Source: Blastococcus atacamensis
GTDB lineage: Bacteria; Actinomycetota; Actinomycetes; Mycobacteriales; Geodermatophilaceae
NCBI RefSeq assembly: GCF_002938425.1
Contig: NZ_POQU01000012.1
Location: 1 to 64,000 of the forward strand
Direction: 5' to 3'
DNA: 64,000 nt
How positions within the stretch are numbered: the stretch's first letter is position 1; each line of letters begins with the position of its first letter. Below are positions 1 to 6,145 of the stretch, in pieces. The position numbers and the translations under genes are program-made. Below the pieces are notes generated by a model. That model was not told where the DNA came from. It did not search any database and saw nothing but the letters and a program-made list of their open reading frames with translations.

Positions 1-4
1 AGAT

Positions 5-1504
5 GTGAATACGAGCCAGGGCACCGAGGTCGAGTACGGCATCGCGGTGCCGGGGCAGCCGGGGGCGAACCCGACGACTCTGTCGAGCCTGGTGGTGAAC
101 GCCTGGGCGGTCGCGGAGGCGCCGACCCCGCGCCGGCCGCGGTGGGACTTCGAGGAGGAGTCGCCGCTGCGCGACGCCCGCGGGTTCGACCTCACCCCCG
201 CGCAGGCGCTGGACCACACCGACCTCGACGAGGACTCCGGGATGGCCAACGTCATCCTCACCAACGGCGCCCGGCTCTACGTCGACCACGCGCACCCCGA
301 GTACTCGACGCCGGAGGTCACCTCACCGCGCGACATCGTGCTGTGGGACAAGGCGGGGGAGCTGGTGATGGCCGAGGCGGCCCGCCGGGCGGCGCGCATC
401 CCGGGCACCCAGCCCATCCAGCTGTACAAGAACAACACCGACGGCAAGGGCGCGTCCTACGGCGCCCACGAGAACTACCTGATGGACCGGCGGACGCCGT
501 TCATCGACATCATCCGCGGGCTCGTGCCCTTCTTCGTGACCCGTCAGGTGTTCGCCGGCTCGGGCAAGGTCGGCATCGGCGTGGAGAGCCGCACACCGGG
601 CTTCCAGCTCTCCTCGCGCGCGGACTTCTTCGAGGTCGAGGTCGGCCTGGAGACGACGCTGAAGCGGCCCATCATCAACACCCGCGACGAGCCGCACGCC
701 GACGCCGACAAGTACCGGCGGCTGCACGTGATCATCGGGGACGCGAACCTGGCGGAGCTCTCCACCTACCTCAAGGTCGGGACGACGTCGCTCGTGCTCG
801 CGATGATCGAGGCGCGCGCCCTGCCGAACGATCTCGCGCTCGAGGAGCCGGTGCGGGAGCTGCAGGCGGTGAGCCACGACCCGTCGCTGGCCCATCGGGT
901 CCGGCTGCGCGACGGGCGGCAGATGACCGCCGTCGAGCTGCAGCGCATCTACCTGGAGAGCGCCGTCCGCTTCGTCGGGAAGCAGGGGGAGGACGACGAG
1001 CAGACCGCCGACGTGCTGCGGCAGTGGGCGTCGGTGCTCGACGACCTGGAGGCCGACCCGATGCGGCTGGCCGACCGGCTCGACTGGCCGGCCAAGCTCC
1101 GGCTGCTCGAGGGCTACCGGTCGCGGGACGGGCTGGAGTGGGGCGACTCGCGGCTGCGGCTGGTCGACCTGCAGTACTCCGACGTGCGACCCGAGAAGGG
1201 TCTGTACAACCGGCTCGTCGCCCGCGGTGCCATGAAGCGAATGCTCACCGAGGACGAGGTGACCCGCGCGATGACGACCCCGCCCGGTGACACCCGGGCG
1301 TACTTCCGGGGCGAGTGCCTGCGGCGGTACCCGGCGCAGGTGGCAGCCGCCTCCTGGGACTCGGTCGTGTTCGACCTGGGCCGGGAGAACCTCGTGCGCA
1401 TCCCCACGCTGGAGCCGCTGCGCGGGACGCGGGAGCACGTGGGCGCACTGTTCGAGGCCTCGGCGACGGCCGAGCAGCTCGTCGACACCATCACCGGCAC
1501 CTGA
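5..1504 (+). CDS. dop: Dop, Pup deamidase/depupylase
   Basis: Carboxylate-amine-ligase-fold enzyme that removes Pup from substrates and, in species with Pup-GGQ, deamidates the Pup C-terminus. The N-terminal metal-binding GTEVEYGI motif (residues 6-13) and the YVDHAHPEY segment, with likely catalytic Asp94, are visible; 499 aa is the usual length. The GTG start lies 4 bases from the window edge, so its ribosome site cannot be checked and a start further upstream is possible. It is paralogous to PafA at 4787 (shared stretch around [13 protein letters not shown]). It heads the pup-prcBA cluster. The Mpa/ARC ATPase, which normally precedes dop, would be outside the window. Confidence 0.95.
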
Positions 1505-1619
1505 CGGTCCGTCCACAGGCGCCCTGGACGTCCACGGCACCCGGTCGGCGGACGCCGGATGTCGGCGCCTGCGAGTAGCTTCCTGATCAGCAGCAGTTCC
1601 ACGGACCGGAGGGCACGGC

Positions 1620-1829
1620 ATGGCCACCAAGGACACCGGCGGGCAGCAGAAGGCGACGCGTTCGCGCGAGGAGAACGAGGAGATCGAGGCCTCGGTCGAC
1701 TCCGACGTCGCCGAGCGCCACGAGAAGATGACCGAGGACGTCGACTCTCTTCTTGACGAGATCGACGACGTGCTCGAGGAGAATGCCGAGGACTTCGTTC
1801 GTGCCTACGTGCAGAAGGGCGGAGAGTGA
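1620..1829 (+). CDS. pup: Prokaryotic ubiquitin-like protein Pup
   Basis: 69-aa, acidic, intrinsically disordered tag that is linked through its C-terminal glutamate to lysines of target proteins and threads them into Mpa and the 20S proteasome. The N-terminal part is polar. The central helical region (about residues 25-55, EIEASVDSDVAERHEKM then a Leu/Ile-spaced stretch) matches the Mpa-binding coiled-coil segment. The encoded C-terminus is VQKGGE, not GGQ, so no deamidation is needed before ligation. A strong ribosome site (GGAGGG) precedes the ATG. It lies 115 bp after dop. Confidence 0.97.
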   Translation: MATKDTGGQQKATRSREENEEIEASVDSDVAERHEKMTEDVDSLLDEIDDVLEENAEDFVRAYVQKGGE

Positions 1830-1849
1830 CGACCTGACTCCATAGCGTT

Positions 1850-2473
1850 ATGTCCAAGCGTTGTCCGTCATGCGGAAGGACGAAGGCCGCGGCGGAGTTC
1901 GGGCGGAACAAGGCGCGAGAGGACGGGCTGTCCTTCTACTGCTTGAGCTGCAACCGGGCTCGGAACAACGCCTGGTACCGCGCAAAGCGCCGCTTCGAGG
2001 GGCGGGAGACCCGCGACCACTCCTGGGTCCCTGAGGGGTTTCGCTGGTGCCCGTCGTGCCAGCAACCCGTGGCACACGAGGACTACACACGGAACCGGCG
2101 CACTGCCTCTGGCTTCGGGAGCTGGTGTCGAACCTGCAAGAACGCGGCCAGCAGCGAGGCCTACTTCGCTCGCGCACACGGGCTCACGAAGGCGCAGATC
2201 GCCGAGTTAAGAGCGCAGCAGCTGAATCGCTGTGCGATCTGCGGTGACGCGGAGCCGCAGCATCTCGATCACGACCACGACAGCGGGAAGACCAGAGCGC
2301 TGCTCTGCCAGCGGTGCAACCACGGGCTCGGCCTCTTCCGTGACGAGCCCGGGCTTCTGCACGCGGCCGCGCTGTACGTCACCGGGCATCGACAGCAGCA
2401 CGCATCCGAGTCGCTCAAGGCCGCCTGTGCCGAGAACCCGGACGGATCAGCCGGCGCCAGTGACCGCCGGTAG
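1850..2473 (+). CDS. Endonuclease VII-like HNH protein with zinc ribbons
   Basis: 207 aa. Two CxxC...CxxC zinc-ribbon-like units lie in the N-terminal half (CPSC/CLSC near residues 5-34 and CPSC/CRTC near 67-96). They are followed by a recombination-endonuclease-VII-type core: CAICG, then HLDHDHDSGK, LLCQRCNHGLG and a helical FRDEPGLL segment. This matches the His-Me finger fold with four zinc cysteines, so a DNA-cutting or DNA-binding role is likely; the substrate is unknown. It sits between pup and prcB in the same direction. No good ribosome site is seen, and codon use is slightly less GC-rich than in its neighbours. The last ~15 residues look unstructured. Confidence 0.8.
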   Translation: MSKRCPSCGRTKAAAEFGRNKAREDGLSFYCLSCNRARNNAWYRAKRRFEGRETRDHSWVPEGFRWCPSCQQPVAHEDYTRNRRTASGFGSWCRTCKNAASSEAYFARAHGLTKAQIAELRAQQLNRCAICGDAEPQHLDHDHDSGKTRALLCQRCNHGLGLFRDEPGLLHAAALYVTGHRQQHASESLKAACAENPDGSAGASDRR

Positions 2474-2570
2474 GGTCGCAGCGACGTCCGGGGCCGCGTC
2501 CGAGCAGTACGCGCGGCACCCGGCAATGCAGCGGTTCACGCCGGCACGTGCGGGCGGGAGAGGCGGATGA

Positions 2571-3428
2571 GTGGACGTGTCGTCAGCTGGCCGGAGCGGG
2601 TTCCCGCCCGCCTACCTGGACCGGGTGGGGTCCTCGTTCACCGACTTCCTCGCGTCCAGCGCGCCCGACCTGCTCCCGGGTCGCCGTCCTCTTCCGCAGC
2701 TGCCGGTGGGTGACATCGCCCCGCACGGCACGACGATCGTCGCCGTCACCTACGAGGGCGGTGTGCTCATGGGCGGGGACCGCCGCGCCACCATGGGCAA
2801 CCTGATCTCGAGCCGCGACATCGAGAAGGTCTACCCGGCCGACTCCTACAGCGTCATCGGCATCGCGGGCGCGGCGGGCATCGCCATCGAGATGGTGAAG
2901 CTCTACCAGGTCGAGCTCGAGCACTACGAGAAGATCGAGGGGCTCACCATGTCCCTCGACGGCAAGGCCAACCGGCTCGCCCAGATGATCCGCGGCAACC
3001 TCGGCGCCGCTCTGCAGGGCCTCGCCGTCGTCCCGCTGTTCGCCGGCTTCGACCTCGACGCCGCCGCCGGCACCGCTCCGGGCCGCATCTTCAGCTACGA
3101 CGTCACCGGCGGGAACTACGAGGAGCGCGGGTACGCCGCCGTCGGCTCCGGCTCGCTGTTCGCCAAGAACTCGCTCAAGAAGACGTGGCGCTCCGGCCTG
3201 CCCGCCGACGCCGCCACCCGCACGGTCGTCGAGGCGCTCTACGACGCCGCCGACGACGACTCCGCCACCGGCGGGCCCGACCCGGTGCGCCGGCTGTACC
3301 CGATCGTCTACCGGGTCGACGCCGAAGGCGCCGTCCGGCTCACCGACGCCGAGGTCGCCGCGATCGCCGACACGATCATCTCCGAACGCGCCGACGCCGA
3401 CCGCCAGAACATGAACCGGGAGGCCTGA
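2571..3428 (+). CDS. prcB: 20S proteasome beta subunit PrcB
   Basis: Catalytic subunit of the actinobacterial 20S core. The propeptide is 53 residues and ends in HG. The mature protein starts at Thr54 ([11 protein letters not shown]), the N-terminal nucleophile. Numbered from Thr1, Asp17 (in [10 protein letters not shown]) and Lys33 (IEK) fall exactly where the active-site residues belong. Total 285 aa is the normal length. The GTG start follows a GGGAGAGGCGG ribosome site; the ATG five bases earlier is in another frame. prcA starts 3 bp after its stop, so the two are co-translated. Confidence 0.97.
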
Positions 3429-3431
3429 GCC

Positions 3432-4304
3432 ATGACGATGCCGTACTACGCCTCCGCCGAGCAGGTCATGCGCGACCGCTCGGAGTACGCCCGCAAGGGC
3501 ATCTCCCGCGGTCGTAGCGTCGCCGTCCTCACCTACGCCGACGGCGTCCTGCTCATCGCCGAGAACCCCAGCTCCACGCTGCACAAGCTCGGCGAGATCT
3601 ACGACCGCATCGGCTTCGCCGCGGTCGGCCGCTACAGCGAGTTCGAGAGCCTCCGCGTCGCCGGCGTCCGGCTGGCCGACGTCCGCGGCTACTCCTACAA
3701 CCGCCGCGACGTCACCGGCCGGATCGTCGCCAACGCCTACGCGCAGACCCTCGGTGCGATCTTCACCGAGCAGATGAAGCCCTACGAGGTGGAGCTCTGC
3801 GTCGCCGAGGTGGGGGACACCCCCGAGCGTGACCAGCTGTACCGGCTCACCTTCGACGGCTCGGTCGTCGACGAGCCCAACTTCGTGGTGATGGGCGGTC
3901 AGGCCGAGGCCGTCACCGGGCACCTCCGGGAGAATTTCCACGTCGGCATGGGCCTGGCCGACGCGCTCAAGGTCGGCATCGACGCGCTGTCGGCCGTCAG
4001 CCCGGCCACGGCGGGCACCGGGCAGGGCGGCCACACGCGGCTGAACGCCGAGCAGCTCGAGGTCGCCGTCCTCGATCGGCGCCGCCCCAAGCGAGCCTTC
4101 CGCCGGGTCATCGGCGCGGCCCTGCACGCCCTCCTGGGCGACGGACAGGCCGCGCGCGAGGCGTCCGAGGGCGGCACGCACGCCCACACGCCCAGCCACC
4201 CCGCGCCGGGCACCCCGGCCGGCCTGGGCGACCCCGCTGCCCCTGACACCGCCGGCGGCGCCGAGTACGAACTCCGACACGACGAGGACGGCGGAGAGGG
4301 CTGA
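3432..4304 (+). CDS. prcA: 20S proteasome alpha subunit PrcA
   Basis: Forms the outer heptameric rings that gate the 20S core and dock Mpa. The family N-terminus MPYYASAEQ (after MT), the ARKGISRG helix and the DVTGR/YAQTLG segments align along the whole length with known PrcA. The C-terminal ~50 residues are a low-complexity tail rich in Ala, Pro, Gly and His that ends in DEDGGEG. It lacks the GQYL-type ending expected of the ATPase rather than of the alpha subunit. 290 aa is slightly longer than mycobacterial PrcA because of this tail. It follows prcB by 3 bp. Confidence 0.96.
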
Positions 4305-4338: not shown

Positions 4339-4692
4339 ATGCCGACGTACCAGCTCAACGACGACGCCCTCCGCCAGGCCCGGAAGCTCATCGACGACGG
4401 CGCGGTCGACGACACGACGGAGTGGTCGGACGCCGCCCCGTCGGCCGACGACGGCAACACCGAGATCGAGGAGCACGGCTGGGACGGGTACGCGAGCTGG
4501 CACCTCGCGATCGACCCGGACGCCAACGAGGAGACCAAGAAGCGCTACCGGTTCCCCTACGGCGACTTCCGCAAGGTCAACCGCGCCGCGTTGATCCACG
4601 GCAAGCAGCGCGCCGCGCAGAACGACCACGCGGAGATCGAGCGGGCGTTCGACGAGCTGCTGCAGCGCCTCGACCGGAAGCGGGATGCCTGA
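4339..4692 (+). CDS. Conserved hypothetical protein between prcA and pafA
   Basis: 117 aa, acidic and soluble, with no signal peptide or membrane segment. It opens with MPTYQLNDDALRQARKLIDDG, then GWDGYASWHLAID, KKRYRFPYGDFRKVNR and a final amphipathic helix (AEIERAFDELLQRL). I believe similar small proteins occur in many actinobacteria, but I cannot assign a function. It lies 34 bp after prcA and about 95 bp before pafA, inside the proteasome locus, so a link to pupylation or proteasome use is possible on position alone. A ribosome site GGGGAG precedes the ATG. Confidence 0.75.
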   Translation: MPTYQLNDDALRQARKLIDDGAVDDTTEWSDAAPSADDGNTEIEEHGWDGYASWHLAIDPDANEETKKRYRFPYGDFRKVNRAALIHGKQRAAQNDHAEIERAFDELLQRLDRKRDA

Positions 4693-4786: not shown

Positions 4787-6145
4787 GTGGACCGACGGAT
4801 CTTCGGCATCGAGACCGAGTACGGCGTCACGTGCACCTTCAAGGGGCAGCGCCGGCTCTCCCCGGACGAGGTCGCCCGCTACCTGTTCCGCCGGGTGGTG
4901 TCGTGGGGGCGCAGCTCCAACGTCTTCCTGCGCAACGGCTCCCGGCTCTACCTCGACGTCGGCAGCCACCCCGAGTACGCCACGGCCGAGTGCGACGACG
5001 TCAGCGAGCTCGTCGTCCACGACAAGGCCGGTGAGCGGATCCTCGAGGGGCTGGTCGTCGACGCCGAGCAGCGCCTGGCCGAGGAGGGCGTGGTCGGCGA
5101 CATCTACCTGTTCAAGAACAACACCGACTCCGCCGGCAACAGCTACGGCTGCCACGAGAACTACCTCGTCGGCCGGCACGGCGAGTTCGGCCGCCTCGCC
5201 GACGTGCTGATCCCGTTCCTGGTCAGCCGCCAGATCGTCGTCGGCGCCGGCAAGGTCCTGCAGACCCCCCGCGGCGCGCTGTACTGCGTGAGCCAGCGCG
5301 CGGAGCACATCTGGGAGGGCGTCTCCAGCGCCACCACCCGCAGCCGGCCGATCATCAACACCCGCGACGAGCCGCACGCCGACGCCGAGCGCTACCGGCG
5401 GCTGCACGTCATCGTCGGCGACTCGAACATGAACGAGACGACGACGCTGCTCAAGGTCACGATGACCGACCTGGTGCTGCGGATGATCGAGGCCGGCGTC
5501 CCCATCCGGGACATGACGTTGGAGAACCCGATCCGGGCCATCCGGGAGATCAGCCACGACATGACCGGCCGGCGCAAGGTGCGGCTGGCAGGTGGCAAGG
5601 AGATGTCGGCCCTGGAGATCCAGGCCGAGTACCACTCCCGCGCCACCGAGTTCGTCGACCGCGAAGGCCTCGGCGACGTGCACCGGCGGATGCTGGAGCT
5701 GTGGGGCCGCGTGCTCAAGGCGGTCGACACCGAGGACCTGAGCCTCATCGACCGGGAGATCGACTGGGCCACGAAGTTCAGCCTCATCGAGCGCTACCGC
5801 GCCAAGCGTGACCTGTCGTTGAGCTCTCCGCGGATCGCCCAGATGGACCTGGCCTACCACGACATCAGCCGCACCCGCGGGCTCTACTACCTGCTGGAGC
5901 GCAACGGTCAGGTCGAGCGCGTGGCGCACGAGCCCGAGGTGTTCGAGGCGAAGAACGTGCCGCCGCAGACCACCCGCGCACGGCTGCGCGGCGAGTTCAT
6001 CCGCAAGGCCCAGGAGAAGCGCCGCGACTTCACCGTCGACTGGGTGCACCTGAAGCTCAACGACCAGGCGCAGCGCACCGTCCTGTGCAAGGACCCGTTC
6101 AAGGCCGTCGACGAACGCGTGGAGAAACTGATCGCGAGTATGTGA
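4787..6145 (+). CDS. pafA: PafA, Pup-protein ligase
   Basis: ATP-dependent ligase that joins the gamma-carboxylate of Pup's C-terminal Glu to a substrate lysine. The N-terminal metal site FGIETEYG (Glu9, Glu11) and the base Asp57 in [11 protein letters not shown] are present. The nucleotide/metal stretch around [18 protein letters not shown] and the [17 protein letters not shown] segment match the family. 452 aa is the usual length. It is a paralogue of Dop without Dop's long N-terminal insertion. The start is GTG with a leaderless -10. The SDR gene overlaps its stop as GTGA. Confidence 0.97.

Follow-up and report, generated by a model that had tools for sequence, protein, structure and literature searches.

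It is documented that homing endonucleases and restriction enzymes of the DHHRN type mostly carry their motif towards the C terminus and resolvases mostly towards the N terminus, that the homing endonuclease F-CphI has its EndoVII motif on the C-terminal side, and that free-standing homing genes are optional genes lying between two conserved ones (sections on these enzymes in PMC6083498). Mobile endonuclease ORFs of fungal mitochondria have been described to bring with them a foreign 3′ end of atp6, atp9, cox2 and nad3, which in the case of atp6 differs from the native end by synonymous changes only (passages on these genes in PMC3630166). The Pup-proteasome locus has been presented in the order dop, pup, prcB, prcA, pafA and pafBC, and by keyword search the word "nuclease" is absent from the main texts of the papers concerned (PMC2588565, PMC3511204, PMC8223512, PMC6466877). 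In this study, we show that the same order, present in a window of 64,000 nucleotides from Blastococcus atacamensis (contig NZ_POQU01000012.1), holds an additional endonuclease VII-like gene in the slot between pup and prcB. A search of the literature on the proteasome or Pup together with endonucleases found no description of this gene among the papers listed; subscription papers and figures were outside its scope, and an earlier notice is possible. The gene may be annotated as an endonuclease VII-like protein in Streptomyces.

In the window, all genes of the locus lie on the + strand. The dop gene (Pup deamidase/depupylase; 2..1504, its 5′ end at the contig edge; Pup_ligase PF03136, E 2e-188) is followed by pup (1620..1829; PF05639, E 2e-29; TIGR03687, E 1e-21), whose product ends in GGE, and by a leader of 20 nt (1830..1849) from the pup stop codon to the ATG of the nuclease gene (1850..2473; ORF call, 207 aa, of the allele class that we term type A). 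Downstream lie prcB (2571..3428; TIGR03690, E 6e-108), prcA (3432..4304; TIGR03691, E 3e-110) and pafA (4787..6145; PF03136, E 1e-167). A 117 aa ORF between prcA and pafA (4339-4692), found in several loci of the family f1, taken as Geodermatophilaceae, has no Pfam match at E 1. The initial annotation had placed the nuclease next to the PafBC damage regulators; both regulators, PafB and PafC, were indeed identified on that strand, but at about 8.3-10.2 kb, some 6 kb away, so that the wording was loose. Its remark on codon use was borne out, with a GC3 of 0.83 in the nuclease gene compared with 0.95-0.98 in dop, prcB, prcA, the 117 aa ORF and pafA; that of pup is 0.87. When the window was viewed by eye for a frameshift fusion of Pup and nuclease, a stop in the nuclease frame was seen before its ATG. 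The nuclease is the single match in its own genome (3.9 Mb), and phage relatives reach at most 36% identity among the matches listed; on these two grounds, an unfixed prophage gene is not supported.

The identification of the gene and of its two extra zinc ribbons, both claimed from the letters of the window, proved correct. Profile searches assigned residues 108-177 to Pfam Endonuclease_7 (E 5e-16) and residues 63-182 to the PHROG endonuclease VII (E 8e-36), and alignment together with a structure model placed one ribbon at residues 5-34 (C5, C8, C31, C34; 1862..1951) and the other at residues 67-96 (C67, C70, C93, C96; 2048..2137). The catalytic region (2231..2320; alignment and Hpy99I) has the D, H, H, R and N of the DHHRN/EndoVII motif and two CxxC pairs (D140, H141, H143, R149 and N157 with C128, C131, C153 and C156), and these nine residues are unchanged in 79/79 aligned sequences, the homologues having been retrieved by patterns that contain part of the motif. 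The AlphaFold2 model, made with 78 homologues (pLDDT 93.8, pTM 0.64), shows two alike strand-and-helix ribbons with the nuclease domain after them, and this C-terminal domain is the predicted DNA cutter. The best match among solved structures by profile is Hpy99I (PDB 3fc3, E 1.8e-16, residues 63-188), in a match that takes in ribbon 2 as well as the catalytic domain, and the second is T4 endonuclease VII (E 2e-11). The Foldseek ranking agrees, with a TM of about 0.26, which indicates that the structural likeness is local. With PADLOC, a type II restriction enzyme model was matched weakly (E 4e-7).

Among described enzymes, F-CphI and other DHHRN homing endonucleases resemble the slot nuclease in their DHHRN residues and in the C-terminal side position of the EndoVII motif, at residues 128-157 of 207 here, and F-CphI is likewise encoded by a small free-standing gene adjoining a conserved gene (PMC6083498, in the sections that treat it). 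However, F-CphI comes from a cyanophage and is associated with an intron of psbA, whereas the slot nuclease is encoded in a bacterial chromosome beside pup, has two extra zinc ribbons and is predicted to cleave; the likeness of the two is one of description. The type II restriction enzyme Hpy99I matches the slot nuclease by profile over its second ribbon and its catalytic domain, but Hpy99I-like genes mostly adjoin a methylase (same sections of PMC6083498), whereas the neighbours of the nuclease are pup and prcB and no methylase was identified among the window proteins scanned. T4 endonuclease VII (PDB 1e7d/1en7) has the catalytic core in common with the slot nuclease, but its motif is N-terminal, and the slot nuclease adds the zinc ribbons.

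The initial annotation had asked whether the order pup-nuclease-prcB is found in related families, and indeed it recurs across families and classes. In the family, a nuclease match was found in 97/112 genomes searched and PrcB in 104/112, so that a recent horizontal gain unique to this genome could be discarded. In the order sample, the nuclease was matched in 70/200 genomes and PrcB in 198/200; the match immediately preceded prcB, in the same orientation, in 63/70 and lay elsewhere in 6/70, the remaining genome (G173) having no PrcB place among the matches listed. In the class sample, the nuclease was matched under a stricter limit (E 1e-10) in 58/296 genomes, PrcB was found in 237/296, and the order pup-nuclease-prcB was present in 29 of the 30 loci fetched, the other one stopping at a contig edge. 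In the phylum sample, 22/246 genomes had a nuclease match, 13 of them outside the class, and in 7/7 loci fetched from other classes the nuclease lay between dop and prcB, with pup visible in 5/7. A search blind to neighbours gave the same picture, as 78 of the 80 best named homologues, from Blastococcus, Geodermatophilus, Modestobacter, Micromonospora, Actinoplanes, Actinomadura, Streptomyces, Kitasatospora, Embleya and other genera, are arranged as pup, one or more nucleases, and prcB. On the other hand, none of the best 80 relatives on viral contigs adjoins pup or prcB, and no viral donor of the cassette is among them. The statement that other species have almost no gap between pup and prcB applies to some families, in which 19 empty loci have short gaps of 28-253 nt, but fails as a generality in view of the counts for family, order and class. 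Occupancy showed no clear pattern with the GGE or GGQ ending of Pup (90 E and 69 Q in occupied loci, 6 E and 13 Q in empty ones, not deduplicated). Retention and inheritance of the gene differ from those of pup, prcB and dop, which a core component of the Pup-proteasome system would share, given its presence in 58/296 class genomes compared with 237/296 for PrcB and its frequent decay.

This decay is evident within the family. The slots of 93 of the 112 genomes were examined, the 19 left out being mostly incomplete or without PrcB, and 92 were usable, with pup and prcB on one locus (G695 was not). Of these, the nuclease is intact in 72, broken in 17 and reduced to a remnant in 1, and 2 are empty, where intact means one open frame across the profile and the DHxH motif; G146 and G170, which are counted as intact, lack the usual start codon ahead of the first cysteines. 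The 20 dead or empty slots are spread over eight genera with pup and prcB still recognisable, and mapping the intact or dead state onto the PrcB tree requires 17 changes. In G164, the empty slot looks like a deletion because the start of an A-type leader is retained. Empty slots also occur in other families, and the nuclease is thus an optional gene between two conserved genes, as free-standing homing endonuclease genes are. Related intact copies are nevertheless under purifying selection: the median dN/dS was 0.20 for the nuclease and 0.10 for PrcB in 129 close pairs, which come mostly from other families and are non-independent, with some loci under two ids. Selection thus maintains intact copies at the protein level, as would be expected under a homing cycle and equally under a host function.

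The history of the nuclease alleles differs from that of the genes around them. In the nuclease tree (62 rows), family f1 falls into two deep groups, A and B, interleaved across genera, whereas the pup-prcB-prcA tree tracks genera more closely. The intact family slots comprise 19 alleles of type A, 51 of type B and 2 of type C, types A and B are both found intact within six genera, and the A/B type changes at least 19 times on the PrcB tree (70 rows). The nuclease data reject the genus of the window as one clade (AU p 1e-35). In sliding windows that compare the present locus with L013 or L035, both of its genus, DNA identity is mostly 90-100% in pup and prcB and 76-96% in dop, falls to 34-66% in the nuclease and climbs sharply again before prcB. 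The possibility of transfer raised earlier is thus upheld, alleles of very different age lying within near-identical flanks. The two halves of the gene also differ: L026 and L017 are about 50% different in the 5′ part of the nuclease and 91-100% identical from about 450 nt, and among same-genus pairs with a PrcB dS <0.25 (n=133) the dS was >1 or saturated in 119 for the N-terminal half and in 67 for the C-terminal half, indicating a faster turnover of the recognition (zinc-ribbon) half than of the catalytic one. In none of 2415 pairs was the nuclease dS below that of PrcB in either half, so that the sample contains no recent donor, and no co-conversion dip near the insertion was seen in the few cross-genus pairs viewed. 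Between families, the histories are mostly congruent; alleles mostly group by family, with f16, f25, f32 and f33 needing one change each, which suggests that the association with the slot is old and largely vertical at this level, and that a history apart from the host genes, as expected of a homing endonuclease, is a feature of the family. Type C is a distinct EndoVII-like protein found in the slots of L031 (G158; 295 aa) and L219 (G693), both of the genus of the window, and its phage relatives are distant (30% identity at best among the matches listed).

The type of the nuclease is also reflected in the end of pup. In the window, the last five codons before the stop, CAG AAG GGC GGA GAG (1812..1826), have the spelling of type A, and synonymous sites in this stretch covary with nuclease type. 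In 87 A/B slots, the third base of the Gln codon was A in 52/62 B and G in 25/25 A, that of the Lys codon A in 51/62 B and G in 24/25 A, and that of the first Gly codon G in 45/62 B and C in 20/25 A; within-genus permutation reached these associations in 0/2000 trials for each of the three codons. Restricted to intact slots, CAA and AAA were each present in 45/51 of type B, and CAG in 19/19 and AAG in 18/19 of type A, against a background of <1% for both CAA (6/1827) and AAA (7/1341) in the dop, prcB and prcA genes of these loci. In contrasts that take the PrcB tree into account (11 independent A/B pairs), CAA went with B in 8.4 on average and against it in 0 (p about 0.008), and AAA and GGG showed the same pattern. 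The association was strongest in the last five pup codons, with weaker signals back to -54; the Tyr codon at -7, intended as a control, trended with type (5.5 vs 0.3 of 11 pairs, p 0.06), and at p<0.02 nuclease type was tracked by none of the initial 90 positions of prcB. Outside the family, CAA was found in 63/105 occupied and 2/18 empty slots (Fisher 0.0002) and AAA in 62/105 and 3/18 (Fisher 0.0015), in tests that ignore kinship, call slots occupied by gap length and include some genomes under two ids. Broken type-B slots retain CAA in 7/11, and their pup tails compared with intact ones gave p 0.019 for AAA, 0.067 for CAA and 0.16 for GGG. However, two broken slots typed as B (G127 and G769) have A-like leaders, which makes the typing of remnants doubtful, and we therefore make no claim on reversion of the tail.

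The 30 nt past the pup stop codon fall into sequence classes that match the zinc-ribbon half of the nuclease across genera. In a partial Mantel test, the leader correlated at 0.38 with the zinc-ribbon half given the C-terminal half and at -0.07 the other way, and this covariation may be linkage because the two are adjacent. Family f1 leaders have short inverted repeats by eye, which differ by nuclease class, for example CCATTC..GAATGG and CCAAGATCATCTTGG. With regard to the end of the host gene, the fungal mobile ORFs are alike in that an endonuclease ORF follows a host gene at its 3′ end and in that this end differs at the DNA level with little or no difference in the protein. However, they encode LAGLIDADG or GIY-YIG enzymes, are organellar and have the native end still downstream (PMC3630166, passages on the mobile ORFs), whereas the slot nuclease belongs to another enzyme class, and no duplicated native pup end was noticed at the slot.

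On the other side of the nuclease, a TAGGGT hexamer (2471..2476, + strand) overlaps its stop codon upstream of prcB. In the intact slots viewed, TAGGGTCG was found after the nuclease in 14/14, and also in G749 and G738, and it is absent from G164. The TAGGGT-type element is a putative prcB promoter, and with TAGGGTCG lying past the nuclease, prcB would withstand changes in the slot. Upstream of pup, an element TGTCR...TAGCTT (1559..1581, + strand) weakly resembles the PafBC/RecA-NDp motif, scored with letters that we take to be those of the motif; with 2 mismatches it is the only match in the window, where 1.04 are expected by chance. Across 92 family loci, a similar element lies at a nearly constant distance from pup, 60-64 nt upstream in many of them, with 1-2 mismatches in 25 loci and 3-6 in the others, and a mean of 3.28 mismatches compared with 5.33 in shuffles, a comparison in which any conserved promoter at this position would score too. 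There is thus a weak hint that the pup promoter is connected with DNA damage.

It seems to us, at about an even chance of being right, that the slot nuclease is a free-standing, site-resident DHHRN endonuclease (EndoVII/Hpy99I/F-CphI) with homing-type dynamics, an enzyme of a kind able to act as a selfish gene, and that its cassette includes the recoded end of pup. The N-terminal zinc ribbons would choose the site and the C-terminal domain would cut the DNA; the address would be the slot from the pup stop codon to the prcB promoter, with the conserved 3′ end of pup as the likely target region. The version of the pup tail spelt out in its cassette would protect a resident allele. Cuts would fall on chromosomes in which this spelling differs or is missing, with the resident copy as template for the repair; as an outcome, new specificities would displace old ones, with dead copies decaying until re-invasion. 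Cleavage, target, immunity by recoding and homing itself are what we infer here. Points that speak against this reading are the old and largely vertical association between families, the absence of a recent donor from the sample, the position of the best 80 viral relatives away from pup and prcB, the lack of a clean boundary to the type signal in pup and the CAA retained in 7/11 broken type-B slots. A recoded host-gene end is also known from engineered gene drives. It is a more tentative proposal, which we think may well be wrong, that the slot holds a natural recoded homing drive, in which a ribbon nuclease that targets the conserved 3′ end of pup, the gene of the ubiquitin-like tag, travels with a synonymous rewrite of it, so that species have mutually exclusive specificity types (A, B, C and subtypes) that invade, decay and re-invade across the phylum.

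A homing-type resident has to be weighed against a nuclease that serves the host as part of the Pup-proteasome system. Such a nuclease would be expressed with pup, perhaps under PafBC control, would act in damage processing or attack foreign DNA and would be removed by pupylation, with its turnover being an arms race. The constant address across classes, the purifying selection (dN/dS 0.20), the PafBC-like element upstream of pup and the weak PADLOC match to a restriction enzyme (E 4e-7) are all consistent with this, and rapid change in the recognition half would suit an arms race. However, 20 of 92 family slots are dead or empty beside a recognisable pup and prcB, the promoter-like element of prcB lies past the gene, a simple restriction enzyme would have to be kept in check by other means given that no methylase is among the neighbours identified in the window, and the type-specific pup tail is left unexplained; we consider this account unlikely, if the more serious of the alternatives. 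The link between DNA processing and the proteasome that the initial annotation had suggested, if read as a resolvase-like partner, finds no support, given the C-terminal motif, Hpy99I as the nearest solved structure by profile and the frequent decay while pup and prcB stand. A Holliday-junction resolvase like T4 endonuclease VII, as the Pfam name Endonuclease_7 and the second place of that enzyme among PDB relatives (E 2e-11) would have it, is highly improbable: the motif lies towards the C terminus and not at the N terminus as in most of that group, Hpy99I scores higher, and the gene is absent or dead in relatives. On these grounds of motif position and nearest structure, this candidate was rejected.

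The pup tail and leader might also form a regulatory or translation-initiation element that moved with the 5′ half of the gene by ordinary recombination and without homing, and AT-rich pup tails might serve the translation of the next gene. It would accord with this that leader and pup tail track the N-terminal half and not the C-terminal half given the N-terminal one, that occupied slots show more AT-ending codons at many of the final 25 codon positions of pup and that the leaders contain inverted repeats by eye. Yet type A retains CAG in 25/25 and AAG in 24/25 slots, broken ones included, and start codons lie at similar distances, so that general needs of initiation do not explain a type-specific spelling, nor would they explain one address across classes; we regard this explanation as improbable. 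The homing-type resident is favoured over both the host-serving nuclease and the regulatory tail since the slot nuclease fits the patterns of F-CphI and of the fungal ORFs. If it is right, an EndoVII-class homing endonuclease encoded in the chromosome would have had its address in the Pup-proteasome operon through much of the actinobacterial phylum, and the common ORF in the pup-prcB gap would be explained. In that case, neither synonymous changes in the pup tail nor genes of the pup-prcB gap would have to serve the proteasome, and the many natural pairs of nuclease and tail might allow a zinc-ribbon recognition code to be read.

Several loci depart from the simple arrangement. The contig L003 (G155, C176) has a family f1 dop-pup-nuclease-prcB locus inside a family f10 genome and is probably contamination; it was treated as such because its neighbours group with family f1, and was kept in the trees and omitted from the outside-family codon counts of occupied and empty slots. 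In L106, L107, L160, L131, L142 and L144, extra open frames on the opposite strand lie between nuclease and prcB in slots of 1.5-4.1 kb. In L138 (Bailinhaonella thermotolerans), a two-domain nuclease follows pup with prcB and dop absent within 5 kb, and here the nuclease accompanies pup, not prcB. Two nuclease matches were found in 25 of the 80 best named loci, of which L117 and L166 are split frames. In all five f32 loci (L086, L088, L094, L097, L100), the nuclease ORF continues past its catalytic domain into another one fused to it, and such a pair could cut asymmetric sites.
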